Virus record (IMG/VR): IMGVR_UViG_3300030102_007579
Span: 1,738-43,864 of that record
DNA: 42,127 nt
Strand: one strand, 5' to 3'
Origin: a virus
The translations under genes were made by a program, and so were the position numbers. The notes under the pieces were generated by a model. It saw nothing but the letters and a program-made list of their open reading frames with translations, was not told the DNA's origin and searched no databases. Positions within the stretch are counted from its first letter, which is position 1, and every line of letters starts with the position of its first letter. This document shows positions 19,301 through 41,410 of this stretch, piece after piece.

Positions 19301-20327
19301 CTTTTAGTTGTGTTTTTGTTGCAAATTTTAATGAGTAACATTTATCAGCATCCACAAAAAGTTCATTATTCTGTAATTCTTGTGCCCAGTTTAGTGGAAA
19401 AACGTATTTACCATTTTTAAATACTTTTCTACTTTCTTTAATTTCATTATTTTCTACAAACCTAGAAACATTATACGGTATTTCTATTAAATTATTACTA
19501 GGTAAATTTACATCTTCCAAATTAACGTTAGGTGTCAATGGATTTTCTACAGCATAAACTCTACTACTAATTAAATCTAATGTTTCAGGTAGACAATTTT
19601 GTGGTGTTAATTGTTTCTTGTAATCATATATTAATTCTCTATCAGCTAAATCTTTTGGGTGTAGGGTTAGGTAAGTTGTTTCTAATTTTATTTCCTGTGG
19701 TGGTGTGGTAATTTGTTTTACCGGTTCTATACTTATTATATCACCTTTTATTATTTTATTCTCATCTAAATTAACTTTAAAATCTAGTGAATGTACATAT
19801 TGCCCACAATTCTCTATGAACATATCCATATCAAAAGAAAGGTTATGTATTGTATTTTTTCTAAATGTAACACCTGGAATTATCATTTGTAATGCATGAG
19901 CCTTACCACCTACAATTTTACCAAATGATTTAATACTCCCACTATTTGGGTTTGTACTAAAATAGTTTCTATGACTTAGGAAAGCTCCTGCCATCCCTCC
20001 TTGTATTTTTTCAAACCCAAAATTACCTTTAGAATTTCTAAAAACTTCTAGTATTATAGGTGTTCTTTTTAAACCTATAAATTTATTTATATTATAGAAT
20101 TTTAATAATTTTTCATCAAAGTATAAAAATACTCTTTGTACACCATTTTTAACTTCTACTATAACATCTACTGGGTAATCAGTATTATAAATAAAATGAA
20201 AAGATGCTCTTTTGTTAATAATTTCAGAGGGCACTCTACTATTAACATTTCCAGACATGAAAAAAACAAATTTTATTTCATCACCTAAAACCCTTAAATC
20301 TACTTTTGTTCTATATACTTTTTCCAC
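16356..20327 (-). CDS. Giant tail protein with HxHP motif and Cys-rich C-terminus
   Basis: A 1323-residue protein starting at a GTG codon. Near residues 440-460 it has GYYHVHPEKGAMVGANHT followed by PEAHD, which resembles the His-x-His-Pro...Asp metal-binding motif of JAB/MPN (JAMM) peptidases but with Thr/His where Ser is expected, so activity is uncertain. From about residue 1070 it is Cys-rich, then Pro/Gly-rich, then carries one C4 module near 1219-1246 (CKDGLC ... FTSFEECVKLC) of the same type as those repeated in the 2651-residue protein. The extreme C-terminus (CKPGYYWCESVGRCI) is again Cys-rich. It is probably a structural tail or host-contact protein; a peptidase role is only possible. 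Confidence 0.7.
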   Translation of the reverse strand: MEKVYRTKVDLRVLGDEIKFVFFMSGNVNSRVPSEIINKRASFHFIYNTDYPVDVIVEVKNGVQRVFLYFDEKLLKFYNINKFIGLKRTPIILEVFRNSKGNFGFEKIQGGMAGAFLSHRNYFSTNPNSGSIKSFGKIVGGKAHALQMIIPGVTFRKNTIHNLSFDMDMFIENCGQYVHSLDFKVNLDENKIIKGDIISIEPVKQITTPPQEIKLETTYLTLHPKDLADRELIYDYKKQLTPQNCLPETLDLISSRVYAVENPLTPNVNLEDVNLPSNNLIEIPYNVSRFVENNEIKESRKVFKNGKYVFPLNWAQELQNNELFVDADKCYSLKFATKTQLKAFSEKLKNQQIGSVETYPTINSQGQVQNIPRTYSRISQWVNRSSLNTFTDIRFTYTVDGDINTITICPSKECVVGPQKIGSEKGLYTSGNEYLLPSGEEYIGYYHVHPEKGAMVGANHTPEAHDILTPLYTIAPISANTVTDFCFTTYDKKDEKELYTGFTATTGDANIPNKTYDLHLSGASFTANTVVPISNIERQTKMKLIGDTTLEYRPYAFSQAYGRNNGTLIFNETDVDNYLTYSAITSGVYRFIYKGYLNIKYTDSQWCEYLEKAYPSGFTGNYPSNDYEIKRLINTSIIQAGDGEKEVVATDTDFKFNAGEKYRDCKSGREKYICGDAPANTGILNFNFTASLVRGSSTGGTGTTLTQFKVVRSRQTDGFANAYLTLDVDKNDMTTSGTNSCVLSSMTSSTIFHKQIPVTLDTGLINLISGQTIQLKYETAWNTTSKGGFYYLTGGATAIDINFGHRLDMSGNTLESPYYRGIKASNGVVSKKLFFDSTKKSLPFDYKVGDITRTIELDGSLYLSDSECGNIKIPFVSTNTFGSLNFLDSSAPDNKLVWDITTEKPSNNWQTMIENNTIKDYVLSDKSNSKMTGMKENGLFSFYIPTYNSHEYGGKCDFNFPQLSQSYVIVNNFKNYYGNTLLHYIVITPDCGFHKPCSGTKVASTYDIIHKTTPADWKVVNLNRKLNIKGKDVNIVSAFSHYNPEPEVVSNSTKCKYYCQCGQELASSLKLDPIYGITNIFHDLETKECNDCLKNAQEYCFSLNNNCRAHLVGDCATDNLYIEQVINNLRPQILSTPATNTLYGGEEVSSSGGKPAGPGGPEPKKPPYVEGEDRGGIEPKGRPSGRPRNPDELEDNVNINIFTNPGGGIYYTGDEGIQTIRYSCKDGLCFEDPNGRFTSFEECVKLCTQVVIDEGGGPVKPSKSDPEDEPGRDLSDDVYVEESDKISELEYLNIKDSGLCKPGYYWCESVGRCISEKEPCKGK

Positions 20328-24700: not shown

Positions 24701-24703
24701 CTT

Positions 24704-24925
24704 TTAAGGTTGTTTATTTATTTTATAAAACCCATATCCATGTAACTCTAATTCACCTAAATTTGGTGTTTGTCCTAATCTTTGGGGTCTTTCAAAGACA
24801 GTTATTTTTCCTCTTTCAATAAATATATTAGACCTAGTTTCTGGTCTTTCACAAACATTCATTAAAACTTCCTCTTTTGTTAAAGGAGGTATGCAACCAT
24901 TTCTAAAAATTTTTTTAAATCCCAT
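24704..24925 (-). CDS. Small tail-region protein (73 aa)
   Basis: A 73-residue, basic protein of unknown function (begins GFKKIFRNGCIPPLTKEEVL). Its ATG follows a 52-base spacer, the clearest break between the 2651-residue gene and the next block, and its stop is only 3 bases from the 302-residue gene. Segments FIERGKITVFERPQR and LGELELHGYGFYKINKQP look like beta strands. The small size and its place at the head of a gene group suggest an adaptor or a chaperone, which is speculation. Confidence 0.6.
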   Translation of the reverse strand: MGFKKIFRNGCIPPLTKEEVLMNVCERPETRSNIFIERGKITVFERPQRLGQTPNLGELELHGYGFYKINKQP

Positions 24926-24938
24926 CTATCATTTTATT

Positions 24939-24945
24939 ATAAATA
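24939..24945 (-). promoter_or_regulatory. TATTTAT motif before 73-aa gene
   Basis: On the gene strand the spacer reads GATATTTATAATAAAATG followed by ATAG and the ATG at 24925, so the TATTTAT core lies 13 bases upstream of the start. It matches cores at 12746-12752, 39051-39057 and 41423-41429. No hairpin with a T-run is evident in this spacer. Confidence 0.35.
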
Positions 24946-24977
24946 TCTAATTAATAATTTCTAGTATTTCATTTTAT

Positions 24978-27900
24978 CTAAAATAACATATTATCTGTTG
25001 GTCCTGCTGGACCAATGACATCTACTGGGTCAGGCTCGACAGTTGGGTCACATATCCTACCTACACTGTCATAACGACATGGTTTCCAAGCTGAGTAGTA
25101 TACCTGATAAGTCACACCCCATTGAGCTCCACTACCATAATTTACATCTCCATTTTGTGGTATATTATCAATAAAACAAGGTGGTGGCATATGTTTATGT
25201 AGAACTGGGGATAAATCAAACCATACAACTGGACTAACATTAATCATTTCTGGCTCCATACACCTACCTAGAACATCATCCCATCCATAATAACATGCAC
25301 AACACCAACAACATCCTTTTCCATTATTGTCTACTGGATTAACGTCGTATATACACTCACCTATTTGAAAATGTAAGTAGTTACTTGTTACTGGAGCTGC
25401 TCCATGTGGGAAACTCACAGGTGTTGGTAAATACGTATTAAGATTGTGATTACAGTTATCACATGGTTCTTCTAGCACTGGTTGACAAGTTCCATTATCT
25501 ACATCAATACCACAAGGTGCCCACATACCACCACCAATATTCTGTCCAACTATACTACTTGGTTCTGGTTGTCCATCTTTACATATCGGTGGTGCACTAA
25601 CCGAGAATAATAAAGTTTGTAAACTTTCAGGTGCGTATGGATTTGCTAATGCTGGACTTGGTCCATATGGTACACAACAATAACAACAATCACCATCAGT
25701 AGGGTCAAAAACACAATCATTTATACTGTATGCTACTGAATTACTCCAAGGACCTAAATAATTTACAGGGCCTGTTAATAAACTACCTAAATTAACATCA
25801 CAATCATCACAACCTAAAAGTGGGTCTGTACAGTCTAAAAGACAGTCTTGAAGAGCTGTTGGGCCCGTATATTGTCCCATTCCATTTCCTGGGTCTATAC
25901 AATTACATGAACCTGGACAATTAACACAATCAAAAGTATCTGGTATTGTTGGGTCCTCACAACAATTAAAAGCTTGTTGGCAATCTAAAAGACTACTATA
26001 TGTACCTGCAGGGTCTTCTACACACTGACAAGGTGGTCTACATATATTACTAGATGTTACAGCTATACACAAATTAGAATTACTAGTACAACCCGGAGCA
26101 TTGTTACAAGGAGTATTAGGGTCATTAGCTATTTTTGAACTTACCTGTAATAAATCAATTAAAAAACCATCAGGTGAATATGCAGGGTTTCCTGCCGCAC
26201 CTTGAGCTGGATTATAGAGGTCGTTCCATGTTGCTGGTGTAACACATGTTTGAGCGATTCCCCAAATAAAATGGAAGTAACTAGATGTGACGTTGGTAAA
26301 CATCATATCTGGATGGCTAAATTCTATACCACTTCTTTTAAGACGATATGTATTACCAGCAGCATTTAAATTTGTTTCTTCAAAACAGTCTAGTGACAAT
26401 GCCAATCCAGGCATAGCTCCATAAGGGTCAACTTGTGTACCACCTACATAATTTACATGTTCAGTATGATATGCTGGATAACCACCTAACACACCTGTTT
26501 GGCCATTACCTGGTAAGACAGTATATCCTAATGATTTATGTTTCAATAATAATACTTGTAAAGCTGTACCAGGATTAGAATAATAACCTAAATTTATGAT
26601 ACTATTAACTTGGGGGTTACTGTATCCTATAGTAAGTAATAATGAAGCGTCGGAAGGGTATACGGTAAATTCATTTGAAAAACTTTGGGTTAGACCAAGT
26701 CCAACTGGTTGAGTAACATATGGAGGGTGAGAACCAACCCCTGTATTCCAACCTGTCCAAGCTGATGATACTGTATTGTCACCCTTACATGCCCATGTCT
26801 CTGTTAAATAACAACATGTGGTAGTATCTGCGGTACACGCATCTAAAGTATTATACCCAACAGTAGCATTTGCATCCCAAATACATGGGCAAATTCCTGT
26901 ACCTGGGTCTGGATTTCCTGTGTTACAAACATAATAACCAGTTGGGACGGGTTGACAACAAGGATTAGCGTTTGCTGCAATATTACAAGTAGGTAAATCG
27001 TTATAAATACAATTAGGTCCAGTAACACAAGGTTGGCAGTAACACGGTCCTGTTTGTGCACATTCACAATTAGACGTTGCGGCAAAAAGCCCAACATTAG
27101 TTTCCCCATAACTGTACATTTCTTGTTTTGCATCATACACAGTCATACTTGTAGTAAATGTTTGTGGTAAACTTAGATTTGCATTAACCTGATTTAATTG
27201 AGTGATAGCATCATTCCAATCAACAAAATATCCTGAGCATCCATTTGCTGCGGTATAAATGGTATTATTAGAATGACACTTAGGGCGTGTTCTAAATACA
27301 CCACCAATACCACCATACTGATTAGGGTCAGGATTAGGACAAGAATTATTGACAGCGTTTGGACTTACAGCTTTTTTACTCTCAAATGGTGTGTTTGGTG
27401 GGAAACTTTGTACTATCCAATCAAAAAGTATGTGAGGGAAGTTCCAGGAACTGGTTCCTGCATTAATACCCATCGCTCCAAATCCAGTGGTTCCTACTGG
27501 ATTTATTGGGTATTCCAGAGTTGCGTTAGAACATACGGTATATAGTGGTCCTCCTTCAATACATTCAAACATAGTTGTTGCTGCTGTTGTAGGACAAGAA
27601 GTGTCACATGGTACCCACATTGGGTACCCACCATTTGTTTGTCCACCAGGAAACGTGTTTGGTACATTGGCTGCTAAGAAATTTGAATATTCATTATACC
27701 ACTGTGATGGGTCCATACCACCATGTAAAGCTGGGTCATATTGGTCGTATACCATAACATAACAACAACAAGTGTTTGCTGAATCACAATGTGTTACTAC
27801 ATCTGATATGTTGTAAAAATTAGTAGCTCCCCAACTAGGTGCACTAATAACACTACCCACAATTGGAGTTGGGATAATAACGGAACTTAATGACCAATTA

Positions 27901-30900
27901 CCACTTGCATCAATTACAGGGAAAGTAACATTACCCGCGGTTAAACAATCTTGACATGGACAACAAGTTGTATTGTCTGAACCTATACCACCTAATGGAT
28001 AAGAGTTTGTGGTACAAGCCGACATAGTATTATAAGCAGTACAAGCTAAATAAGGTGGATTTGCGGTTAAAAATGGTATAGTTATAAGACTACAATGACA
28101 TGGGTCTGGTTGAGCTATCGCACCTAAATCTGGTTTACATTCTCCACATATAAAGTTACACTCATCTTGACAATCTGCCGGGTTTGAAAAAGGTCCATGT
28201 ACACAATCTGCTGGCATCGTACCAACAAAACTTATACAACCATCAGTTGCATGGCAACAATATTCTGTTGATTGTGGACAACAAGGATATTGAGTTTGTA
28301 AACTTATACAATCTCCTATTGATATCGCACAACTAAAATTATATGGATTTAAGTCACATAAACAACTAACAGTTGTATCACAACAAAATCTACAAGCAGC
28401 TTGACAGTCAGTTAGACTAGCAAATCCTGTAGCTCCCGCTGGATACGGTGTAGCATTACCTTGTTGACCAAAAACTTGATTTTGTGTCCAACCTGGGAAA
28501 GGTGGTGTTGTAATCCATCCTTGAATAGTTGTTTCTGGAAAACAATTTGTTGTGGTAGCTGATTGTCCCGGATTAGTATCACAAAAATAAACTGATGGTG
28601 CTGTACAATTACAATTATTTGTATTTGCCCAACAATCAAAAGCTGACGTATGTTCTGGGAATAAACCTAATGGGTTACTACCCACAAACTGACATTGTCC
28701 TCCTGTTGATGATGCGTCACATGCCCATTTACAGTTTTCTTGACAGTCTGCTAAAGTAGTGTAAGCAGCAGATGGATATAGTGGGTCCCCTGGAAAAACT
28801 TCTATACATCCACAACCATCAGGTGCTACACAAGGTGATAAAGAACTACACCATTCTGTATCATCACAATGAAATTTACTAGTTGCTCCAGAACAACAAT
28901 CTAAGTTATTTGGTGGTGGTGCTAATATACCTTGTTGACACTGAAATACACTTATAAACCCATACCAACTTGATGTGTTAGTTGTCACTCCATTTATAAC
29001 ATCTTGTAACATAACACAATCTGTAAAGTCATCAGTTGGGTCAGCAGGTGTACCATTATCATCACAGAAACAACCCGCTTTACAATGGTCCATACATGTA
29101 CTTGCTGTATAACAATTGTTCGCGGCCTCTTGACCGAAAACATAATTACAAGGTACAACATTAAGGGTACAACCATTAAAAAAGTCACAACTATATGTAT
29201 CACCAGATACTTGTTGACATGGGTCACAACCAAAACCTATACCTGCAGTAGCTCCACTTGGTGTACTACCACAACTTATCCACGTATTAGGGGTTCCATT
29301 TGGTGCATCTGGACCTCCCGGTATAAAATAATTACAATCATAGAATCCTCCTGGGTAAGGGTTACTATATATTGGTGTGTCACAATAATAACAACACACA
29401 TCAGGTGCTCCTAATTGCCAAGATACATAATCATATAACTCATAAGCATTATATACACTATCCCATTCTCCTTGGTCTACACCAATACCTCCAGTAAACG
29501 GGTCACAAGCACATTCACAGGTTACTTCATCAGGTACACACCCAGTAGGGTTATCTGTAGTACATTGTGTAAAGTTACAATATATAGGACCAAGAGGGCT
29601 ACAAGGTGGATTACCACCCACAACCGCAATATATACACAAGGCCAGTATGGCCAAGATGGGTCATACTGACCACTTGCTGGATTAAATATTTGTGAATTT
29701 TCATCACATTCTATATCACAACAACCTGTTGCCATACAACAAGCCGAAAAAGAATCATAGGGACCTCCAGGTGACCAACCCCAACCACTAGGTAATGTTG
29801 CTGGATTTGAGTAATTTTGACAGTTACCATAGCTACTACCATCTGTTAAATTAACAAGACAGTCATGTCCACCATCTGTAGGGCAATTGTCGTCACAATC
29901 TTGTGCGGTGGGATAACTTCCATTTGGATATAAAGCTAATAAACCTGGGTCTATAGGATTTGGGTTTGCACCGAACCCACTTAAAGGTACGTTTGCTGGG
30001 TTAATAGCCCAAGTTGCTTCCCAAGCTGGTAATGGTGTAGGGCAAGGTGATAATTGTTGGCAGGGTGTGGCATCACCACTTAAACAAACCCAACAGCTAG
30101 TTAATGGTGGTACACAATAAGTGCAACACTGTGCTGATGTAGTATAAGGACCACAACCTGGTGTAAAACAAGGTATACATGTACTACTACCAGGAAAACC
30201 AGTACCACCACTACAAGGTTGTACCCATGGGTCGTAACAAAGCCAAGCACAAGGACCAGGTATCCCATTATTATTATTTGGGTCACTAGCACAATCACCA
30301 GAAGTAGCGTAAGTACCTCCAACTATTTGTACACAACCTTGGTCACAAAAATATTCCCAAGCTGTAAAATCACAACACGCTGATATTCCTTGGCCTGGAA
30401 CACCGTTTTCACAATCATTTAAAGTGTAAAATGGGTCTAAAAATAACTGATTATTATTAGCAGTTATTTGTGGGGTAGCTAGAATATAATTTGTCATTAT
30501 ATCGTAATAATCCGCATCCGGTAAAGCTGCACATGATACTTCAGAACAACAAGGTGTTGATGTTGGTGTTGTACATGACCAAGCTATTGGATTACACCAA
30601 TCTTCACAATCTGTCATTGAAGAGAATGTAACTGAAAAAGGATATGTGGCTGCTGAGTAAGCTGGGTGTGTATAATCTATTTGAATACACCCTGGTTGGT
30701 CACAATTATATTGATTTGGGCAATGCCATCTATCATCGACTGGACAATTACCATTATTATATTCTGTTAAACAACCACCAGGACCAGCGTAAAAAGTAAA
30801 ACTATTAGGTGTACTTCCTGAAATTAATTCACAAACATAAGGACCTGGATTGTTCAAATCTGGTGGACATACCCAACTTACACAACCTACATAATCCCAA

Positions 30901-32933
30901 TAAGATACGTTAGTAGTTGCTGTAGGTACTATACCTGCCGGTACATTAGTTAAAGCTCTATAACAATTTCCATCTGGACCATATATAAACTCTCCTGTAT
31001 TAAATGTTTGGGTGTTATCCCATTGTCCCGCTACACCAATACCACCCATAGGTGAATAAGCGTTGAATGGACTATATGGGTCAGCACATGGTAGTGCACT
31101 ACCTGTAGGACAAGTTACACAGTCTGGTGTACAGGCCTCCCAAACATGTACATCTGTACCCCCAGTAGGATTAAGATAAACTCCTTGGTATAACTGATGT
31201 GGTAGTATTCCAGCAAATGGACTATTACCACCCACATTACTTGTTTGTACTATATCTGTTACTGCTATATAACAACAACAAGATTGTGGTGTAACATCAT
31301 AAACTATATCTCCTTTAACATAATCTACAAATGGTGACCAATTAGGTGGATTAGCAGGTGCATTAGCTGTTATAGTTTCTACAGTTAAAGTAACTCTATC
31401 AATATATTCATCTTTTGTTAAACAAAATTCACAAGTTTCTTCAGGACACTCAAAACAATCTTCACCACCAAAAGCTAAAGAATTTAAACCACAACTAGTA
31501 GCTACAAAAATAGTTATTCCATTTCTAAAATCGTAAAAATCTATTGGTGTTTGTCCATTAGCTGAAGATATCGTATATCCCGTATATTGTACATTTGCCG
31601 CAAATATGTTTCCAACCATACCTGCTGTTATGGTATTTGTTAGTGGGTCAACAACATCACCACCAACTGGAACTACAGTAAATAATTCAAACCCATCAGG
31701 TAAAAATCCTGGTGCTAAAGTAGATGGTGCATTACTATAACTTGCAAATATACCTACAGTACTTTCTGTTATACCAGTAACTTCAAAACATGGAGTTATA
31801 TTAGTACCACTATATTCGTTTATATTAGTACCGGAATCCAATGGATAGTAATTAGGTGTTCCTATGGTCCCATAAGTACCATGATATGCGGTTGATGTAA
31901 ATAATGGTGGTGGAAACACAGAAGGTGTTGGGTTAGGTCCACTTAAATTTACTTGATATGGGTTACCTCCTGGTGTACTAGGTGATAAAGGACCACCCAT
32001 ACCCGCACCAGTAGGTGGGGCTGTAGAGAAGGGTTGAGCTAATATTTGTGTATACGTTAGATTAGGTACTGTTATTATTTGACTAACTGAAGTTGGTCCC
32101 CATGGACCATTATGTGTTATACTAATACTGTACTGTGAAGGATTCACATATTCGTATTCACTAGTTAGAGAAGGATATTGTAAATCTTCACAACACGGAT
32201 AACCGTTTGCATTGAATGGGACAGAACAGTCACATTCTCCCCAATCAATTCTATATGATGATTTTTGAAATTCTTTATACGAACCAAAATCTGTTGTGTT
32301 ATACACCTGTATTTTCATCCCATTACCTGTTGTATTAGCTGTAAAATTAAAATTAGAAAATACTTGTTGTTGGTCTATTCTTCCGTCCCAAATACTATAA
32401 TGTCCTATATCGTTATAATCTTGTGTTAAAGTTACTGGAAGTTTATATAGAATACTATCTAAGGGGTCTAAACAACTACATATTTCTACACTTTCACCCC
32501 AAAACGCATTAATACCTTGTGAGTTTAATGATTGATTTATATTTGTATTAGTAACGTCATATATTGTAATTAAATCATTATAACTACCTGTATAAAAAGT
32601 TGAACCTGAAGTAAGTACTAAACCTTTAAACTGAACATAACTATATCCATCTGGGTTGAAGCAATTAGTTGGGTTTGGACTTAACGGTTGGTCCCATAGA
32701 ATTACACACGGATTAGTCGGTGAACAATCTTTTAATTCGGTTGGAAAACTAGACATAACACTACTATCTATAGCATTCATTATTTGAGAACCTGTTGAGT
32801 TGTACATGGTTATCCCAGAACAATTTGTACTAAGGTTTATTGGATAAAAATTTGTTCCTCCAGTACATGGCATTGTCCAAGTACTTCCAGTATCTGGGGT
32901 ACTTCTTCTTATTGTAAACTTTTGTATATCCAT
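24978..32933 (-). CDS. Giant Cys-rich repeat protein, probable tail adhesin
   Basis: A 2651-residue protein with about 200 Cys by my hand count, few before residue 510. Two repeat types alternate. Type 1 (six copies, starting near residues 529, 637, 1155, 1700, 2393 and 2516) runs W-x4-6-Y-x3-D-x-V ... CC-Y ... W-x-PC, e.g. NWSPFVDYVKGDIVYD ... SCCCYIAVTD; the front half resembles chitin-binding CBM5/12 modules. Type 2 (about 14 copies) is a four-Cys unit ending like AYTTLADCQENC or TYSSLLDCQQAFNC. Two less Cys-rich globular stretches lie near residues 1790-1960 and 2080-2250. No signal peptide or enzyme motif is visible. It sits among baseplate genes, so I infer a virion surface adhesin; disulfide or metal stabilisation is possible. 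Confidence 0.75.
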   Translation of the reverse strand: MDIQKFTIRRSTPDTGSTWTMPCTGGTNFYPINLSTNCSGITMYNSTGSQIMNAIDSSVMSSFPTELKDCSPTNPCVILWDQPLSPNPTNCFNPDGYSYVQFKGLVLTSGSTFYTGSYNDLITIYDVTNTNINQSLNSQGINAFWGESVEICSCLDPLDSILYKLPVTLTQDYNDIGHYSIWDGRIDQQQVFSNFNFTANTTGNGMKIQVYNTTDFGSYKEFQKSSYRIDWGECDCSVPFNANGYPCCEDLQYPSLTSEYEYVNPSQYSISITHNGPWGPTSVSQIITVPNLTYTQILAQPFSTAPPTGAGMGGPLSPSTPGGNPYQVNLSGPNPTPSVFPPPLFTSTAYHGTYGTIGTPNYYPLDSGTNINEYSGTNITPCFEVTGITESTVGIFASYSNAPSTLAPGFLPDGFELFTVVPVGGDVVDPLTNTITAGMVGNIFAANVQYTGYTISSANGQTPIDFYDFRNGITIFVATSCGLNSLAFGGEDCFECPEETCEFCLTKDEYIDRVTLTVETITANAPANPPNWSPFVDYVKGDIVYDVTPQSCCCYIAVTDIVQTSNVGGNSPFAGILPHQLYQGVYLNPTGGTDVHVWEACTPDCVTCPTGSALPCADPYSPFNAYSPMGGIGVAGQWDNTQTFNTGEFIYGPDGNCYRALTNVPAGIVPTATTNVSYWDYVGCVSWVCPPDLNNPGPYVCELISGSTPNSFTFYAGPGGCLTEYNNGNCPVDDRWHCPNQYNCDQPGCIQIDYTHPAYSAATYPFSVTFSSMTDCEDWCNPIAWSCTTPTSTPCCSEVSCAALPDADYYDIMTNYILATPQITANNNQLFLDPFYTLNDCENGVPGQGISACCDFTAWEYFCDQGCVQIVGGTYATSGDCASDPNNNNGIPGPCAWLCYDPWVQPCSGGTGFPGSSTCIPCFTPGCGPYTTSAQCCTYCVPPLTSCWVCLSGDATPCQQLSPCPTPLPAWEATWAINPANVPLSGFGANPNPIDPGLLALYPNGSYPTAQDCDDNCPTDGGHDCLVNLTDGSSYGNCQNYSNPATLPSGWGWSPGGPYDSFSACCMATGCCDIECDENSQIFNPASGQYDPSWPYWPCVYIAVVGGNPPCSPLGPIYCNFTQCTTDNPTGCVPDEVTCECACDPFTGGIGVDQGEWDSVYNAYELYDYVSWQLGAPDVCCYYCDTPIYSNPYPGGFYDCNYFIPGGPDAPNGTPNTWISCGSTPSGATAGIGFGCDPCQQVSGDTYSCDFFNGCTLNVVPCNYVFGQEAANNCYTASTCMDHCKAGCFCDDNGTPADPTDDFTDCVMLQDVINGVTTNTSSWYGFISVFQCQQGILAPPPNNLDCCSGATSKFHCDDTEWCSSLSPCVAPDGCGCIEVFPGDPLYPSAAYTTLADCQENCKWACDASSTGGQCQFVGSNPLGLFPEHTSAFDCWANTNNCNCTAPSVYFCDTNPGQSATTTNCFPETTIQGWITTPPFPGWTQNQVFGQQGNATPYPAGATGFASLTDCQAACRFCCDTTVSCLCDLNPYNFSCAISIGDCISLQTQYPCCPQSTEYCCHATDGCISFVGTMPADCVHGPFSNPADCQDECNFICGECKPDLGAIAQPDPCHCSLITIPFLTANPPYLACTAYNTMSACTTNSYPLGGIGSDNTTCCPCQDCLTAGNVTFPVIDASGNWSLSSVIIPTPIVGSVISAPSWGATNFYNISDVVTHCDSANTCCCYVMVYDQYDPALHGGMDPSQWYNEYSNFLAANVPNTFPGGQTNGGYPMWVPCDTSCPTTAATTMFECIEGGPLYTVCSNATLEYPINPVGTTGFGAMGINAGTSSWNFPHILFDWIVQSFPPNTPFESKKAVSPNAVNNSCPNPDPNQYGGIGGVFRTRPKCHSNNTIYTAANGCSGYFVDWNDAITQLNQVNANLSLPQTFTTSMTVYDAKQEMYSYGETNVGLFAATSNCECAQTGPCYCQPCVTGPNCIYNDLPTCNIAANANPCCQPVPTGYYVCNTGNPDPGTGICPCIWDANATVGYNTLDACTADTTTCCYLTETWACKGDNTVSSAWTGWNTGVGSHPPYVTQPVGLGLTQSFSNEFTVYPSDASLLLTIGYSNPQVNSIINLGYYSNPGTALQVLLLKHKSLGYTVLPGNGQTGVLGGYPAYHTEHVNYVGGTQVDPYGAMPGLALSLDCFEETNLNAAGNTYRLKRSGIEFSHPDMMFTNVTSSYFHFIWGIAQTCVTPATWNDLYNPAQGAAGNPAYSPDGFLIDLLQVSSKIANDPNTPCNNAPGCTSNSNLCIAVTSSNICRPPCQCVEDPAGTYSSLLDCQQAFNCCEDPTIPDTFDCVNCPGSCNCIDPGNGMGQYTGPTALQDCLLDCTDPLLGCDDCDVNLGSLLTGPVNYLGPWSNSVAYSINDCVFDPTDGDCCYCCVPYGPSPALANPYAPESLQTLLFSVSAPPICKDGQPEPSSIVGQNIGGGMWAPCGIDVDNGTCQPVLEEPCDNCNHNLNTYLPTPVSFPHGAAPVTSNYLHFQIGECIYDVNPVDNNGKGCCWCCACYYGWDDVLGRCMEPEMINVSPVVWFDLSPVLHKHMPPPCFIDNIPQNGDVNYGSGAQWGVTYQVYYSAWKPCRYDSVGRICDPTVEPDPVDVIGPAGPTDNMLF

Positions 32934-33798: not shown

Positions 33799-35602
33799 CT
33801 ACAAATTCTGAAACTACATTTATGCTACTAGAGCTATAACCAAACATTACAGGTTCTATTTTAAATTCTGTATTTAAATAAGGGTAATGTGCGTCATTTA
33901 AAAACGGATAACTAACACCATTATCCCCATCTTCAAAAAAATCTATAGGCAAGATAGGTCTCCACCTAAAGGTACCTTCTGATAAAGAATAAGTAGCGTA
34001 TGGGGGTGTTGTAAATAGACTATCTTCATAACTTATAGTTGTGGATAATTTACGTATTGGTATTCTATGGTGTGGTTGATAGTTATATATTGATTTTACA
34101 TATTGACTAGGTATAGAGGTATTGGGGTATCCCGCAAATTCATACATAGCATCTCTATTAAATTTTAAAGAGTGTTTGATTTCTGAAATTACTCTTTCTT
34201 TTAACTCAAAAGCATTGTATTCAACAAAAGCACCTCTATAGGTAGTACCACTTAAAGGTAGTGGGTCTAAACCATTAGTATTATTTTGAAATAGGTTTGT
34301 GGGGTTTGTATTATTATCCACAAATGGGTCTATGAATCCATTATGTCTAAAGTTCCACTCCCACCCATATCCAGTTGGTGAGTTAGCGGGAGCCTCGTAA
34401 TGCCACATTAAGTTTCTATTTGTTTGAAAAATTGTTAGATATAATTCTGTCAAAGGTCTATTAAGGTTATCAGAAAATTCTTCCACATCTATATCAAGAT
34501 TTATATTCCATAAAAAAGATTTAAAATCTTCTATAATTGCTGTTTTATCACCGTAACCATCAGGAGTTCTTCTAGATTTATAAACTCTACCTTTTTTATT
34601 ATATATTCCATTTTCAAATCCAGTTCTATCTAATGTATAATCGGATGAATTAGTTATCAATTTATGAATATGGGTACAATAAGTAGAACGTGTCTCATTA
34701 ATATTATCTAAATTTATTATACGTTTTATAACACAAAAGGAATTTGTTGGTACGGCTGCTGGGTCTATACCTTTAGTGTATATGTTTAGGACATAACTTT
34801 CTGAATTTGCAAATTCATTACCTAGAAAATCTACCTTGAATATGTTTTGATTAACTGTATTTGATACATTATTTATATCTGAAGTAATTGGTACGGTTGG
34901 TACTAGGTTTGCTCCACCAAAACTATTAATAGACACACTACTTTGTAATTCTACAAATTCACCTGAAGATATTCCGTGAGGAGATGCTGTTGTTATTCTT
35001 ATAGTTTCTTTTCCATCTGTCGTTACTACTTGTATACGAGCTGGTATACCATCCCCACTATTAAAATTAATACCATCTGTACCATCACCCATACTAAATG
35101 ACATAGTTTGTCCTGTATCACAACCTGAAATATAAGATATGTAAGCTACCCAATTATCTTGGTAGGAATCTAAACTACTAAATTGTGAAGCTGTTGTTAT
35201 CCCATATCTATATGGTGGCATAAAAGTAAATAAATCTGATGGGGGTAAACCAACACAAGGTGGTCCTGACCAATAACCTAAACCTGGACTTGCAGTCGCG
35301 GGGTCTGGACAACCAATATAATCCGGTGTAAAATACATGTATTCCAAAACTCTACTATCGTTAGTTACTCCAGTTATCTGATTACTATATAATATATCTA
35401 TTTTACCATAAGGTCTATATGTTGTAGAGTATTCTCTTTCAAAATCAAATTGGTCTCTTAGGTTAAGAACTAAATTTCTATCACCCTCTATCATAGCACG
35501 TTGTTCTGCTGTTAAAAAAGGTTGTAAACTAATATCTTTATTTTGAGCTCCGGCAAATCTAGATTCACCCCTAACAATTCTTATATTTTTTTTATTACTC
35601 AT
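33785..35602 (-). CDS. Putative baseplate protein (605 aa)
   Basis: A 605-residue protein. The N-terminus is basic and helical (FLTAEQRAMIEGDRNLVL, about residues 29-46), the middle contains 'PHGISSGEFVELQ'-like beta segments (about 208-220), and the C-terminal half is mixed alpha/beta with many aromatic residues. I do not recognise a family. The order gp25-like, gp6-like, 1133 residues, 605 residues mirrors the T4 run 25/6/7/8 only in position; no T4 gp8 or gp10 similarity is visible to me. Its start overlaps the upstream stop as TAATG. Confidence 0.7.
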   Translation of the reverse strand: MSNKKNIRIVRGESRFAGAQNKDISLQPFLTAEQRAMIEGDRNLVLNLRDQFDFEREYSTTYRPYGKIDILYSNQITGVTNDSRVLEYMYFTPDYIGCPDPATASPGLGYWSGPPCVGLPPSDLFTFMPPYRYGITTASQFSSLDSYQDNWVAYISYISGCDTGQTMSFSMGDGTDGINFNSGDGIPARIQVVTTDGKETIRITTASPHGISSGEFVELQSSVSINSFGGANLVPTVPITSDINNVSNTVNQNIFKVDFLGNEFANSESYVLNIYTKGIDPAAVPTNSFCVIKRIINLDNINETRSTYCTHIHKLITNSSDYTLDRTGFENGIYNKKGRVYKSRRTPDGYGDKTAIIEDFKSFLWNINLDIDVEEFSDNLNRPLTELYLTIFQTNRNLMWHYEAPANSPTGYGWEWNFRHNGFIDPFVDNNTNPTNLFQNNTNGLDPLPLSGTTYRGAFVEYNAFELKERVISEIKHSLKFNRDAMYEFAGYPNTSIPSQYVKSIYNYQPHHRIPIRKLSTTISYEDSLFTTPPYATYSLSEGTFRWRPILPIDFFEDGDNGVSYPFLNDAHYPYLNTEFKIEPVMFGYSSSSINVVSEFVDVCE

Positions 35603-38600
35603 TATATTACACTATCTGCTAGTTCTTCATCAACATATAATCTAATGAATTTATTATAAGCTGTTTCTCCTGGTCTTAAACCAAAATAATAAAATAATGG
35701 TTGTGAAAATAACATAGATGGACCTGTATCTTGTGTCATTGGTGGATACGCATCTTGTGGAGTACCTGGTTGTGGGAAACTATTTAGTAAACCTACATTA
35801 GCTTGATAGTCACCAGAATTTATAGTTGGTGGATTACCTGCTGGAACTGTCCAATCATCTCCTTGTGATTGGTATGGTCCTGTAGTAAACTGCCAATCAT
35901 TGTTTTCAGTACCAAAACCACCAGAACCATCAACTCTCCAAGTATAAAAAGGTATTACTTGTGAACTACCAGATAAATCATAAGCTAAACAATCTATTAA
36001 ATCTGCTCCAGTCATAATTGTTGGTGTGGATGCTGTAAATAAATGTGGTCTCCACTGTATATCGTATGCTGGATTTACATTAACAGCATAATCAACATAC
36101 GTACCACTATTAGCGTAACTGTTTGGTGTTGGGTATTCTATATCTTCTATGATTTGTCCTCCTGGAGGTGGTGCTCCTGGTGGAACAGTACAATCACAAT
36201 TAGTGGTTGTGGTATTAGTTTCATAACCAAATACACCTAACATACAATTTTGCATTAAAGCTTGTGCCATATCACCCCCTATTTCATCTTCTGGTCTAGC
36301 AAACAAATCACCTAAATTCATATTAGGTTCAGAAGCTTTAAGATTATAAGCATCAGAAACTAAATCTGTTATATCTTGAAACGTTGTACTGCCTATTTGG
36401 TCGGTTACTGAACATTCTTGAGCAAATTCTTCATCCAAACATATTTGTTGAATGCATTGATTTCTTGAACCCATATCAACTATAGTAGTTGGAAAATATA
36501 AGTGTCTATCCATATCACCTTCCGAATGATTATTAGAACTACTGTTACCTCCTCTAACACCATCTGTATCACCTATAAAACTACCCGTAGTAGATGTATT
36601 CCATCTAAATGGAGAACATCTATAGTAAAAAGTATGGTCGTTAGGGTGTAAATAAACTACTTTTTTACAATATCTCGTACCTGAAGTATCATAAGTGTCA
36701 TTAGCCGCGTCATAAGATAATTTAGCTCTAAATTGGAATTGGTATAAAAATCCGTTTACCCAAGCGTTTTCCCAAAAATAATTCATTATACCATTACATA
36801 ACGCGGAAAATACCCTTTCTCTTCTATACCACTCTCTTATTACTACTGTATTAGTATTAAATCCAGCACAAGTTACATTCATACAAATTGGTTTAACATA
36901 ACAACCTCCACCAGCAGCTAAATCATTATTAGGGTCTGTAGAACCACCTAACGCGTTTGGTGGTGGGCTAGAAGTTGTCGAATTGTACCCATATGAATCA
37001 GGACAACAAACTACATCTCTTTCAACACCAAAAATATTAGTAGATACCCCACAATCATCATTACTCCAACCATAACCAGATTGTAACACAGCCATGTCTG
37101 CGTTTGCGTTTGTTCTACACATACAATCTTCACATTCAGGATATTTTTTTTGTCTTAATGTGAATAAAATAAATCCTGATGGTATTCCGAAAACAGTACA
37201 TGCTGGTTGACAGGAACTACTCCAACTTAGTTGTGAACAGATGGTTGGGGATGGTGGAAAGTTTAACATACTAGCTAACCAACTCCAAGCATTAATTAAA
37301 TTGTAAATAGCACAAACTACTGTCATTATAATAGCAACCACAACCATTACAATACCAAAAACAGTTGCTATAATACCTACTATTGAGGTTAATGCTAGAT
37401 ATATAGCGTAAGTAAAAAATAAGATGAATTGGTTTAAAAATATAATAGCTTTTGCTCTTCTAACAGCACTATTAATTGGAAAAAACATTGCACTGGTAGA
37501 ACATTGTTGGTCTTGTTCTGGTAATATTTCTTTTATACCTATAAATTGTCTTCTACCATTATGTTTTACATGGTCATGAAATTGAGAGTATGTGTATACC
37601 CTATTAAATGTCATATCATAGAATACATCTTTCGCTCCTGGTATTAAATTTGCTTGAGCCCATGGGTGATAGTCAGTATATTCAATAGAAAAACAATACG
37701 GGTCATATCTTTTATTATTACCTGCACCATCAACTAAATCTTCACCTATTTCAGGCCAATCCCCATTAATATCTGTATGTGGTCCAAATTCTCTAATTTG
37801 TGGTACTAGATGTGACCCACGTCTTCTTTGTCTAGCTGTACCAGCAGATTGTTCTGGTCTAACTCTAAATCTACACCTAGTTCTTGTAGCCACACCTAAG
37901 GATGGGTCGTTAGATTTAACTAAATTACCAAACTCATCCGTTATGACATGGTCTAAATTCATAGGCATGTGAACTAGGAAAGAACCCGTTTCGTCTATAA
38001 CCCTTCCACCATTTTCAAAATAAAATCTTTCTAATACCGGCACTTGACCTCCACCTGTGCCAGAACCATCATAAGGCCAAGGAGGAAAAGCTGTTACGTC
38101 TTCTTTAAAAAAGGGAGTATATCTAACACAATCTATTATACCTGGTTGAGTGGCTAAACTACACAGTTCTCCCATATGTTTTTTAGGTCTACACCTTTTA
38201 TTTACCGAATCTTTGTCTGTATCTGTAGCGGTACTACCCATAAAGACAGCTGTTGGTTGTATTTTAACACCTGAGTTAGCTAAATCAAAATCTACTCTAG
38301 TTATTGATGCGTTACAAAATTCTTCATCACCCCAAAATGGTCTTACGTCTATAGATTTTTGTTGGCCTATAATTTGTGGTAAAGAATCTATCGCAGCGTC
38401 ATCTCTAAATCTCGTACCATCAAAATCAGAGTCTGGAAATCCTAATTGTTTAAAATCTTCAGGTAACATAGAAAAACATCCAATATCACTTAAATCCACA
38501 TCCATTACTAGAGTTTGGTCACCTACTGGTACCCCATACAACATAAAATCACCTGATTCATTACTTCTTGCTGTAAATTTATAATATTTATCATAAACGT

Positions 38601-39003
38601 ATTCTATTTCTTGTTTTTCTAAAACTTCGTTTATGGTTGGAAATGTACCAACTGGAATATGACAATCAAAGTTTGGGTCTTTAGATAAAAGATTGTATCT
38701 TTTTCCTGCACTATCAGTATCAAAAGGTTGTGTGAAGGGATATAATTGTCTTATTACTGGATTTTGTTCGTCTTCAGTATCTATCGGTATGAATATTGAA
38801 ACTTTAGCATTTGGTATTCCGTAACCACCATTAGAAATAACCCTACCTACTACAACACCAAAATCAGCACACATTCTAGTGTAAACTTCATTTTGTGAGA
38901 GTGATAAACTTAAAATTTCTAATAAGTCAAAATCTTGGTTTAACTCAAAACTTACTTTTTGGTCTTTTCCAACTTGTGTTCTTACTCTAATAGATTTAGA
39001 CAT
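35602..39003 (-). CDS. Baseplate protein with CarboxypepD-like domain and membrane-like block
   Basis: An 1133-residue protein. Residues about 48-165 follow the carboxypeptidase regulatory-like beta-sandwich pattern (VVVGRVISNGGYGIPNAKVS, later SNESGDFMLYGVPVGDQTLV). Residues about 515-580 are a long hydrophobic block (IIFLNQFILFFTYAIYLALT, then SIVGIIATVFGIVMVVVAII and more) that could form two to three membrane helices, which is unusual for a virion protein. It is followed at once by a Cys-rich stretch (CSQLSWSSSCQPAC, CEDCMC). By position after gp25 and gp6 it could be the gp7-like wedge protein, but I see no gp7 similarity. A 102-base spacer precedes the ATG. Confidence 0.75.
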   Translation of the reverse strand: MSKSIRVRTQVGKDQKVSFELNQDFDLLEILSLSLSQNEVYTRMCADFGVVVGRVISNGGYGIPNAKVSIFIPIDTEDEQNPVIRQLYPFTQPFDTDSAGKRYNLLSKDPNFDCHIPVGTFPTINEVLEKQEIEYVYDKYYKFTARSNESGDFMLYGVPVGDQTLVMDVDLSDIGCFSMLPEDFKQLGFPDSDFDGTRFRDDAAIDSLPQIIGQQKSIDVRPFWGDEEFCNASITRVDFDLANSGVKIQPTAVFMGSTATDTDKDSVNKRCRPKKHMGELCSLATQPGIIDCVRYTPFFKEDVTAFPPWPYDGSGTGGGQVPVLERFYFENGGRVIDETGSFLVHMPMNLDHVITDEFGNLVKSNDPSLGVATRTRCRFRVRPEQSAGTARQRRRGSHLVPQIREFGPHTDINGDWPEIGEDLVDGAGNNKRYDPYCFSIEYTDYHPWAQANLIPGAKDVFYDMTFNRVYTYSQFHDHVKHNGRRQFIGIKEILPEQDQQCSTSAMFFPINSAVRRAKAIIFLNQFILFFTYAIYLALTSIVGIIATVFGIVMVVVAIIMTVVCAIYNLINAWSWLASMLNFPPSPTICSQLSWSSSCQPACTVFGIPSGFILFTLRQKKYPECEDCMCRTNANADMAVLQSGYGWSNDDCGVSTNIFGVERDVVCCPDSYGYNSTTSSPPPNALGGSTDPNNDLAAGGGCYVKPICMNVTCAGFNTNTVVIREWYRRERVFSALCNGIMNYFWENAWVNGFLYQFQFRAKLSYDAANDTYDTSGTRYCKKVVYLHPNDHTFYYRCSPFRWNTSTTGSFIGDTDGVRGGNSSSNNHSEGDMDRHLYFPTTIVDMGSRNQCIQQICLDEEFAQECSVTDQIGSTTFQDITDLVSDAYNLKASEPNMNLGDLFARPEDEIGGDMAQALMQNCMLGVFGYETNTTTTNCDCTVPPGAPPPGGQIIEDIEYPTPNSYANSGTYVDYAVNVNPAYDIQWRPHLFTASTPTIMTGADLIDCLAYDLSGSSQVIPFYTWRVDGSGGFGTENNDWQFTTGPYQSQGDDWTVPAGNPPTINSGDYQANVGLLNSFPQPGTPQDAYPPMTQDTGPSMLFSQPLFYYFGLRPGETAYNKFIRLYVDEELADSVI

Positions 39004-39105: not shown

Positions 39106-40947
39106 TTAGGAGAAAGTTGGTTTGGTATTTCTCTTAGTTCTAACAGCTATGTCCCTTTCTGGGAATCTAATTTGTAATATTTCATCAGGTTGTGCAAAAA
39201 TAGTATCATCTATTAATCCTATTTGTTTGGTGGTTCCATTAGAATATGGTTGTGTACTAACAGATTGTGAGTATGGGTCACCAACTTTATTATATACTCT
39301 AATATCAACTATGTTTATAACACCTGGTTCATTCATTATTTGTTTTCTTAATTCACCTAAAGATAAATCCTGCCCCATCTCTATTTTGTTAACACCAAAA
39401 TAATCCCCCACAATAGTAATTACATCTGTTACTACTTCACCTTGATTTACATCATTATTTAAAATTAAATCAATTTCAAAACTTAAATCTATTACTTTTG
39501 CCGAACCTACCATTATATAGTCATTTAACATTCTATGATTTGATAAGTATGTGGCTATATTATTTTTAAGTGTTGAGCTTACATTAGATGTTAGAGTCCC
39601 TTCTGGTGTGTACGACAACACATTTAATTTAACTTTATTTTCTATTTCCATCGCACTCACCTTTGCTGGTGCACCAAATGATGAAGGCATAGTTCTTAAT
39701 TGTGAAACATAATCGTTTATTGTAACTGCTCTTTGTTGAGCTGCAAAATTAAAAGATATGTAATTTCTTATTTCTTCTTGACTCATAGGGTCTGCACCAC
39801 CTATAGCGGATGTTACGTTATTTACAGCCAAACTATTAATAACGGTTTGGTTTATCTGTTGGCTAGGCCCAGCAACTACAAAATCTATTGTACCCACATT
39901 TTTAACTGCTCCAGCACCTATATTTGAAGCTTTACCACCACCAACCCTATATTGTATAAAAAGTGTAGTGTTACCTTTAACCGTATTACCTAAAGCTATG
40001 TTATTCATAAATCTAGACATGTCTAGTTGAACCCCTTTTGAACTAAATTCATCTAGTAAATCTTGTGAAGTTTGGTTACCACCACCAAATGTTAAAAAGA
40101 AGAAACCTTCTGGTGTGTATTCGGTAACAAATCTTTGTGGGGTTGTTACGTATTTACCAACTTTCATACCCACACTATCAGGTGGTGTAGATGGGTCCTC
40201 AACAAAAACTTCGTTTTGAGCTAAGGCTTCTACTTCACGCCATTTATTTGATAGGGGTGAAATAAACTCTGATGAGTTTGGTAGGGATTGGTAACCTACA
40301 CCGTCTTTTTGTATTATTGAGGTGACTGATATCACATTTTTTTCTGGTAAAAATAATTTAAAAAATGGTTTACTGTCAGTATCTAAAATTTCTTTTTTAA
40401 ATACTTTGGTGGTACCATTAACTAAAACCTCTCTTTTAGTTATTGTATAATTAATTAAAATACCGTTAGAATCAAAATTAGGTATTTTTGTACGATTGGG
40501 GATGCCTTCCAGACTATAAGGAGAAGAAAAATCACAATCATCCACTAATTCAAAAATTTGACCACCACCATTAAATTGTGAACCAGCTCTTAATAACCCC
40601 AAATATTTAAAATCTTCTTTATCACCTAAAGCTGGTACAATAACTGATAAATCACCTACTGTAACTGAAGGTCTATTACCCGGTACTTTTAAACCATATG
40701 TTCTTGCTAAATTATATAGTGAACTTCTTTCTTGTGCGAACTGAAGTACTGTTTCTTGGAAGGTTCTGTCTATTTGAAAGTTTAGATTATCCGCGACCGC
40801 GGCATTTAAGTCTAAAAAAACTGAGTATATAGATGCGTCATTAGCGTTTTGAATTAAATCTGGATAGTAAGTATTAGTTAACCTTAATAATTCATTTCTT
40901 ATCCCTAAGAAATCTCTTTCCGTATAAGCTATTTGTTTTTCTGCCAT
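39106..40947 (-). CDS. gp6: Baseplate wedge protein, gpJ/T4 gp6-like
   Basis: A 613-residue baseplate wedge protein close in length to T4 gp6 (660). The N-terminal region (YTERDFLGIRNELLRLTNTY) is typical of the family. The central 'AIGGADPMSQEEIRNYISF' plus 'QRAVTINDYVSQLRTMP' stretch (about residues 390-430) is the classic baseplate-J signature: A-x-GG-x-D-x-x-S-x-x-x-I, then R-A-V-T-x-x-D-Y. It should form the wedge ring that links the hub to the tail-fibre layer and drives sheath contraction. It begins one base after the stop of the gp25-like gene, so the two are co-translated, as the two families often are neighbours in phage clusters. Confidence 0.9.
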   Translation of the reverse strand: MAEKQIAYTERDFLGIRNELLRLTNTYYPDLIQNANDASIYSVFLDLNAAVADNLNFQIDRTFQETVLQFAQERSSLYNLARTYGLKVPGNRPSVTVGDLSVIVPALGDKEDFKYLGLLRAGSQFNGGGQIFELVDDCDFSSPYSLEGIPNRTKIPNFDSNGILINYTITKREVLVNGTTKVFKKEILDTDSKPFFKLFLPEKNVISVTSIIQKDGVGYQSLPNSSEFISPLSNKWREVEALAQNEVFVEDPSTPPDSVGMKVGKYVTTPQRFVTEYTPEGFFFLTFGGGNQTSQDLLDEFSSKGVQLDMSRFMNNIALGNTVKGNTTLFIQYRVGGGKASNIGAGAVKNVGTIDFVVAGPSQQINQTVINSLAVNNVTSAIGGADPMSQEEIRNYISFNFAAQQRAVTINDYVSQLRTMPSSFGAPAKVSAMEIENKVKLNVLSYTPEGTLTSNVSSTLKNNIATYLSNHRMLNDYIMVGSAKVIDLSFEIDLILNNDVNQGEVVTDVITIVGDYFGVNKIEMGQDLSLGELRKQIMNEPGVINIVDIRVYNKVGDPYSQSVSTQPYSNGTTKQIGLIDDTIFAQPDEILQIRFPERDIAVRTKRNTKPTFS

Positions 40948-40948
40948 A

Positions 40949-41410
40949 TTATAAATTAATTATTACAAAATCTTTAGTTTGAAATACATTATCTCCAGCT
41001 GTATAGTCTATTCTAACTCTTATAGAATATTCTCTTTCTGTAGCACCAACAAAAGTAAAACTATTATCTTCTACATCTGGTGTATTTATTTCTTCCTTTT
41101 CTTGTTGCCTAACATCCTCAGCTGTCATTACTTCCACTTTTGTAATTGTTAAATTAGGTATAAACTTATCTACCGCTTCTCTTATTTCAGTGTCTATAGA
41201 AGTTTTAGTTGCTGCATCCATAGGTTCAAAAATATACCTCATTAAATTAGTGCCAAAATCAGGTAAAAAATAACGCGTACCTTTTAATGTAAGTATTAAA
41301 TGAATTAAGTTAGACCTAACTTCACTGTCTGGTGTTTTATTAAGTCCAAGAAAAAATCCTTCACTACTTTCTGTAAATGGAAACGTTATACCGTATCTTT
41401 GATTGGGCAT
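40949..41410 (-). CDS. gp25: Baseplate wedge protein, T4 gp25-like
   Basis: A 153-residue gp25/lysozyme-like-fold structural protein. The diagnostic stretch is GTRYFLPDFGTNLMRYIFEP (residues 49-68), matching the 'r.pdfG..l..liFep' pattern, followed by the helix TSIDTEIREAVDKFIP and beta strands. In contractile tails it sits under the sheath in the wedge and primes sheath assembly; despite the family name it is not expected to be a lysozyme. The start is 28 bases after the DUF5522-like gene, and the TATTTAT motif lies just upstream. Confidence 0.9.
   Translation of the reverse strand: MPNQRYGITFPFTESSEGFFLGLNKTPDSEVRSNLIHLILTLKGTRYFLPDFGTNLMRYIFEPMDAATKTSIDTEIREAVDKFIPNLTITKVEVMTAEDVRQQEKEEINTPDVEDNSFTFVGATEREYSIRVRIDYTAGDNVFQTKDFVIINL

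Follow-up and report, generated by a model that had tools for sequence, protein, structure and literature searches.

A giant cysteine-rich modular phage protein encoded in a T4-like baseplate cluster, a candidate host-contact fibre

Phage virion proteins fold in a reducing cytoplasm and are usually poor in cysteine. A precedent for disulfides in the virion is provided by phages Milano and 7-7-1 (PMC10811340, PMC12796354), and the structural proteins of Milano contain 2.1% Cys, compared with 0.9% for the virion proteins of T4 (PMC10811340). The giant protein described here resembles these systems in that disulfides, in this case predicted from sequence, would occur in myophage particles produced inside a reducing cytoplasm, and in that the larger of its two repeat modules (module A) matches by fold the 7-7-1 tail fibre and chains of the Milano baseplate complex. 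It has no sequence relation to them, however, and whereas Milano combines its average of 2.1% Cys with interchain links, the giant form carries 7.4 to 8.7% Cys in one chain, most likely in intra-domain bonds.

Two further systems are similar in part. The CBM5/12 (ChiC/ChiA1-type) domains of phage tail fibres share with module A the pattern W..x..Y..GD.V....Y.A......P....W, a short beta fold and repetition within tail-fibre proteins. Module A differs in adding conserved CC and W-P-C cysteines and a longer insert ahead of the last Trp, in being interleaved with six-Cys units and in having window copies that score below the Pfam cut-off. The BACON tandem-repeat tail proteins of crAss-like phages also are made of tandem carbohydrate-binding-type domains, occur in phages of Bacteroidota and have a suggested host-binding role, but they have another fold, belong to another phage lineage and, in the text consulted, are described with no mention of cysteine enrichment (PMC6949934).

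The giant open reading frame and its neighbourhood

The stretch of DNA analysed (the window) comprises 42,127 nucleotides, positions 1,738 to 43,864 of the 43,864-bp linear virus record IMGVR_UViG_3300030102_007579 (GC content, 32.7%); no tRNAs or RNA families were found within it. The features around which the analysis was organised are as follows.

24978..32933, minus strand: giant ORF, 2651 aa, 200 Cys, with orthologues in IMG/VR
39106..40947, minus strand: baseplate wedge gp6-like protein (Baseplate_J, PF04865, 3e-8)
40949..41410, minus strand: baseplate wedge gp25-like protein (PF04965, 2e-12)

Translation of the window revealed that the giant ORF is a single uninterrupted frame; a plus-strand reading of the same interval is full of stops and was ruled out. 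The protein contains exactly 200 Cys (7.54%), the number that a preliminary description of this DNA had estimated by hand, and 183 of them lie beyond residue 510, where that description had placed nearly all. The remaining tallied ORFs of the window contain 0 to 4.8% Cys. Three scans of IMG/VR, carried out with the protein and with alignments, recovered full-length orthologues with conserved gene order, and a fourth scan, with an N-terminal alignment, yielded 103 relatives; complete giant forms are 2,440 to 2,991 aa long and contain 181 to 255 Cys. Since the ORF is found at full length in independent metagenomes, an assembly error is excluded.

Searched directly, neither the whole protein nor its single window modules had a match in Pfam, PHROGs or PDB. 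The giant protein was likewise unmatched among 50,697 phage records, and isolate phages gave no tblastn match whether the query was the giant, mid, split or minimal form (defined below), so that a strong full-length match to a well-characterised protein was absent from all four collections; no report of this layout was found in the literature. The earlier statement that no system of this layout has been described therefore holds for the layout but not for its parts, since CBM5/12-type domains of tail fibres and PKD folds are both familiar. The combination of this size and Cys load with a six-Cys module, a broken-open anchor gene and a swap domain is without counterpart in the libraries, isolates and papers searched. 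A content of 7.4 to 8.7% Cys in one protein, with each Cys near-totally conserved, characterises a lineage that is present in many metagenomes and has no isolate match.

In the relatives inspected, the locus has the order gp25, gp6, 1133 aa, 605 aa, 287 aa and giant. With adjacent gp25 and gp6 homologues, and a T4-type major capsid gene in related contigs (E about 1e-64), this is a T4-like baseplate cluster. The capsid gene (gp23) was found in 5 of the 10 related contigs tested, a count outside which the window, itself a fragment, falls. The closest isolates by gp6 and capsid are Flavobacterium phage immuto, Microcystis phage Mel-JY01 and megaphage LR756508. Shine-Dalgarno-like motifs precede 5% of window genes compared with 4% in shuffles; the corresponding values are 5% and 5% for immuto and 33% and 17% for the Microcystis phage. 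The lack of such motifs in the window, as in immuto, fits Bacteroidota. A Bacteroidota promoter motif occurred at chance level. T4-like phages of about 33% GC with marine Bacteroidetes as predicted hosts have been described (PMC7198788). We conclude that the giant protein belongs to a T4-like phage lineage whose hosts, by a tentative assignment, probably are marine Bacteroidota. Most of the source samples are presumably marine, going by IMG numbering.

Two observations on neighbouring genes were made. The 1133-aa protein of the baseplate cluster (window 35602-39003, minus strand) contains at residues ~515-575 a long, very hydrophobic, transmembrane-like stretch. In relatives L114 to L116, gp23 was matched in two pieces ~500 bp apart in one frame, which suggests an insert between profile positions ~99 and 121.

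Repeat modules and variable domains

The preliminary description had regarded the protein as a two-module mosaic. When a profile of eight orthologues was aligned with itself, significant off-diagonal repeats were present (residues 2371-2489 versus 2487-2634, E=1e-7; residues 526-635 versus 1695-1816, E=1.6e-5). Iterated HMMs resolved two modules in the giant protein: module A, of about 85 positions (W....Y...D.V....CCY......P......W.PC), in 6 copies, and module B, of about 37 positions (W.C...C.C....G.Y.sl.dC....CC), in about 9.

31119..31349, minus strand: module A1, residues 529-605, CBM5/12-like with added Cys (HMM; model core pLDDT about 55-80; Foldseek)
30864..31031, minus strand: module A2, residues 635-690, the shortest and nearest to canonical CBM5/12 (HMM; PDB profile search)
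29265..29474, minus strand: module A3, residues 1154-1223 (HMM)
27594..27842, minus strand: module A4, residues 1698-1780 (self-alignment and HMM)
25503..25760, minus strand: module A5, residues 2392-2477 (self-alignment and HMM)
25068..25394, minus strand: module A6, residues 2514-2622 (self-alignment and HMM)
30594..30710, minus strand: module B, small Cys unit, residues 742-780 (HMM)
30273..30353, minus strand: module B, residues 861-887 (HMM)
28731..28832, minus strand: module B, residues 1368-1401 (HMM)
28611..28727, minus strand: module B, residues 1403-1441 (HMM)
28158..28262, minus strand: module B, weak, residues 1558-1592 (HMM)
27960..28142, minus strand: module B, residues 1598-1658 (HMM)
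26811..26933, minus strand: module B, residues 2001-2041 (HMM)
25959..26042, minus strand: module B, residues 2298-2325 (HMM)
25830..25934, minus strand: module B, residues 2334-2368 (HMM)
27069..27593, minus strand: swappable domain V1 (~170 aa), residues 1781-1955 (P0001/P0003 comparison)
26043..26810, minus strand: variable region V2, residues about 2042-2297 (low conservation)

Above 17 bits, the real protein gave 6 A and 8 B matches and the shuffles gave 0 in 200 trials, controls that included versions with every Cys held at its own position. HMMs built only from distant relatives (~38% identical overall) recovered the same A sites and most of the B sites, several of the latter weakly. 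Self-alignment, HMMs and shuffles thus agree that both module types are real. The protein is not a pure string of them, however: an anchor region extends to residue ~510, and two stretches (~1781-1955 and ~2042-2297) are variable and poorer in Cys, so that the layout is better described as an anchor plus a mosaic. No significant match to either module was found in other window ORFs. One sub-significant unit was noted near the C terminus of another large tail-cluster protein (ORF 16356-20327), where window positions 16584-16670 (minus strand; residues ~1220-1248) encode a lone near-canonical module B-like unit, YSCKDGLCFEDPNGRFTSFEECVKLC.

The fold of module A was approached by profile and by structure. 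A profile of 18 modules, taken from window relatives and distant phages, matched CBM5/12 domains in PDB (best E=1.1e-4; top matches 3wx7, 8yfp, 4ny2 and 1ed7), the enzymes concerned being chitin-oligosaccharide deacetylases, chitin deacetylase DA1 and the chitin-binding domain of chitinase A1. A profile restricted to modules of the giant form matched exclusively CBM5/12 enzymes, at E values of 1.4 and up. Among the module members, 4/18 matched a Pfam family, which was CBM_5_12 in each case. The best of these scores, 22.9 bits for a module of relative L022 on its own, is below the PF02839 cut-off of 26.2 bits; the region after the anchor gave sub-threshold PF02839 matches in L022, L025 and L028, and no window module alone exceeded the cut-off. 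An AlphaFold model of residues 515-905 had a mean pLDDT of 49, with about 55-80 in module A1, and was used only by sub-region. In Foldseek searches, in which no PDB match reached E<=0.001, the low-confidence A1 model aligned with 4nz1 (49 columns, 1.6 A, probability 0.96) and 1ed7 (TMt 0.64); the matches comprised CBM5/12 chitinases and deacetylases, the tail fibres of 7-7-1 and cyanophage A-1(L), chains of the Milano baseplate/receptor-binding complex (8fqc) and an Anabaena contractile-injection protein. Against BFVD, 28 viral proteins were matched at E<=0.001, several of them named ChiC_BD, ChiA1-BD or CBM5/12. Together these searches provide good, if indirect, support for a CBM5/12-like (chitin-binding-domain-like) fold in module A; by the formal cut-off, the giant protein is not a CBM5/12 member. 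Chitin, the known CBM5/12 ligand, is unexpected on the surface of a likely Bacteroidota host, and the ligand therefore may be another glycan or none.

Module B is 37 to 45 residues long and contains six Cys, as do all 6 consecutive B modules of the array in relative L014. Its profile had no PDB match at E<=5, and Pfam returned three weak, single-member matches only. Six-Cys families of solved structure (Kunitz, knottin and the like) were not matched in these PDB and Pfam searches. By profile comparison, module B is without a relative in either library.

Across V1, proteins P0001 and P0003 are 31% identical by forced alignment, and the 1,780 residues preceding it are 98% identical; between P0001 and P0004 the backbone is 73% identical and V1 65%. 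Similarity in V1 is thus incongruent with that of the backbone, which indicates domain exchange. V1 had no match in Pfam. In the middle of V2, 4 to 7% of residues are invariant per 100 residues. These stretches also bear on the reading of the whole protein. A garland- or sheath-like decoration serving the virion as armour or spacer, with disulfides for mechanical strength and CBM5/12-like beads that are structural rather than ligand-binding, would agree with the Foldseek matches to the Milano 8fqc chains, with the small beads that separate anchor from tip in the Milano short tail fibres (PMC10811340) and with the fact that phage CBM-like folds can be pure spacers. The rapidly swapped V1 and variable V2 are better suited to recognition, however, and the dominant fold relatives of module A are CBM5/12 enzymes; we regard such an armour as unlikely. 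In a host-contact fibre, the A modules would be candidate glycan binders and V1 a candidate specificity cassette, both of which are testable.

Conservation of cysteines and their probable state

The preliminary description had left the Cys as either late-formed disulfides or metal ligands, and a comparison of 14 orthologues (40-100% identical) favours the former. Over residues 1-1780, 111 of 140 Cys (79%) are invariant, compared with 22% for the next residue type, and 90% of Cys are retained at 38% identity. Variable Cys columns form local pairs with a shared presence pattern (922/927, 1368/1374 and 1716/1722, and nearly so 1111/1119; permutation p about 0.001). At 922/927 and 1716/1722, absent positions mostly are substituted rather than deleted, and the pair 922/927 is absent from L013 and from L016/L017 but kept in L014, which is close to both.

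Were the Cys to bind zinc or iron-sulfur, the product would be either a reduced fibre stabilised by metal or a surface protein that scavenges it. This would suit the reducing cytoplasm, the mild excess of CxxC (21), CxC (20) and CC (23) over about 15 each in shuffles, and the weak match of one module-B member to a zinc-finger model (E=0.029). Metal-type Cys/His ligand sets would be lost in fours, however, whereas the variable Cys vanish in twos; only 2 of 16 His are invariant over residues 1-1780; CxxC is not dominant; module B has six Cys; and module A resembles an extracellular fold. We give metal binding little credence. Paired Cys loss, unconserved His, mild CxxC enrichment and the six-Cys module B together favour disulfides over metal sites, and the Cys pattern thus appears to be a disulfide signature.

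As to the route of oxidation, phage-encoded disulfide machinery was considered and set aside: 13 related contigs, all fragments, contained neither Erv/ALR nor DsbA above cut-off. Thioredoxin is encoded by 3 of these 13, one of which has a Cys-poor minimal-form anchor protein, so thioredoxin is not diagnostic. Since the protein is synthesised under reducing conditions, and since neither a sulfhydryl oxidase nor DsbA turned up in the related contigs, disulfide formation most likely would be a late event, taking place once assembly is complete or when the particle reaches oxygenated water.

The anchor region, the architecture series and a proposed role

The N-terminal region and a short ORF downstream of the giant gene link the protein to smaller ones.

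31473..32471, minus strand: baseplate-anchor core, residues 155-487, common to all relatives (E=4e-90)
24704..24925, minus strand: 73-aa C-tail ORF, previously unlisted (LTKEEVLMNV..PETRSNIFIERGK...LHGYGFYKI, E about 1e-31)

The core consists of a QDxNDIGHYS..WDG...FSNF segment, a PKD/Ig-like domain at ~165-295 and then a beta-rich domain. With PKD domains it shares the signature YxIDWGDG...HxY...xYxIxI...PWGxTxxSxxxxVP; it differs in that the WGDG of PKD is WGECDC in the window, with four extra Cys, and in that the anchor core lies in a phage baseplate operon. In Pfam, the homologous region of relative L099 scored 24.6 bits against a PKD cut-off of 23.5, L022 and L028 were sub-threshold and the window was below the cut-off. 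An AlphaFold model of a minimal anchor protein (mean pLDDT 49) matched PKD and FN3 folds in Foldseek. Against bacterial and archaeal genomes, the anchor alignment gave 31 pattern matches and no relative.

The core occurs on its own with the C-tail in other phages, as proteins of 364 to 391 aa with 0 to 4 Cys; this minimal protein is found in dozens of phages, in the same baseplate operon. A stand-alone C-tail ORF (~73 aa) was present in all 11 giant loci examined, and its match identifies the 73-aa ORF as the detached C-terminal tail of an ancestral anchor protein. In several relatives, a gene of 190-210 aa (L002:17960-18532, L014:18759-19391) separates the giant gene from the C-tail ORF; it carries a GSF...W(D)xDxI motif like that of minimal nucleotidyltransferases, has no Pfam match and is absent from window 24701-24977.

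Four architectures were distinguished (minimal, split, mid and giant). Beyond the minimal protein, one set has a core gene of 540-644 aa and, after it, a distinct Cys-rich gene (760-940 aa) that carries the C-tail; in another, an anchor gene of ~870-1,250 aa precedes a second gene, in most cases Cys-rich, that carries it; and in the giant set all Cys-rich parts are fused to the core, with the C-tail separate. When 57 core sequences were placed on a quickly searched, midpoint-rooted tree with some long branches, the four architectures required three changes, the minimum possible, and the giants fell on one side of a branch with SH-aLRT 99. We infer that the direction was from minimal to giant. 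Ranging from 364 aa without Cys to a giant with 250 Cys, these architectures offer a natural series for studying the route and timing of disulfide formation in phage particles and the growth of a new phage adhesin.

We consider it probable that the giant protein serves a T4-like myophage as an adhesin, a disulfide-stapled fibre that is anchored on the baseplate, contacts the host and binds glycans. The preliminary description had suggested a giant host-contact protein from position alone; the gp25/gp6 context, the CBM5/12-like modules and the swappable domain speak for this, with the virion location itself presumed. The N-terminal PKD-containing region would dock on the baseplate, and the C-tail, now a separate 73-aa product, probably would still bind beside it. 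A string of CBM5/12-like A modules and six-Cys B micro-domains would extend from the anchor, stapled by about 100 disulfides into a compact arm resistant to protease and shear. Along this arm, the A modules may make many weak contacts with cell-surface or extracellular glycans, and specificity may be set by V1 and V2, which recombine and lie nearer the C terminus. Neither a trimerisation motif nor a fibre shaft was recognised in the giant protein.

Instead of being part of the virion, the protein could be expressed late and released at lysis (e.g., as a decoy or matrix), its position in the tail cluster being incidental. Dozens of phages, however, conserve the N-terminal core together with the C-tail as a small baseplate-operon protein, and bacterial genomes contained no relative, which makes this highly improbable. 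As a bolder and more tentative extension of the fibre reading, which we hold to be possible but somewhat doubtful, these proteins may constitute a new class of adhesin: a small, conserved baseplate protein would have been split at the junction of PKD-like core and C-tail, with the tail persisting as an independent peptide. Glycan-binding and six-Cys modules would have been inserted step by step into the opening until one virion protein carried ~100 disulfides, which would form outside the reducing cytoplasm, so that outside redox completes or triggers folding of the arm.

Other Cys-containing proteins of these loci were noted. In the split architecture, the slot after the anchor gene is occupied by separate proteins of 5-7% Cys with GCTDPxAxNYxPxAxxDDGSC repeats.

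L034:11402-13687: GCTDPxAxNYxPxAxxDDGSC-repeat protein
L038:11383-13773: GCTDPxAxNYxPxAxxDDGSC-repeat protein
L031:11682-14498: GCTDPxAxNYxPxAxxDDGSC-repeat protein

In the window, a 269-aa protein of the structural cluster (9490-10299, minus strand; 4.8% Cys) contains two dockerin/EF-hand-like calcium loops, DFNQDGYVDINDF and DFDGDGIVGVKDL; similar loop pairs occur near the N terminus of the L028 and L029 anchor proteins.
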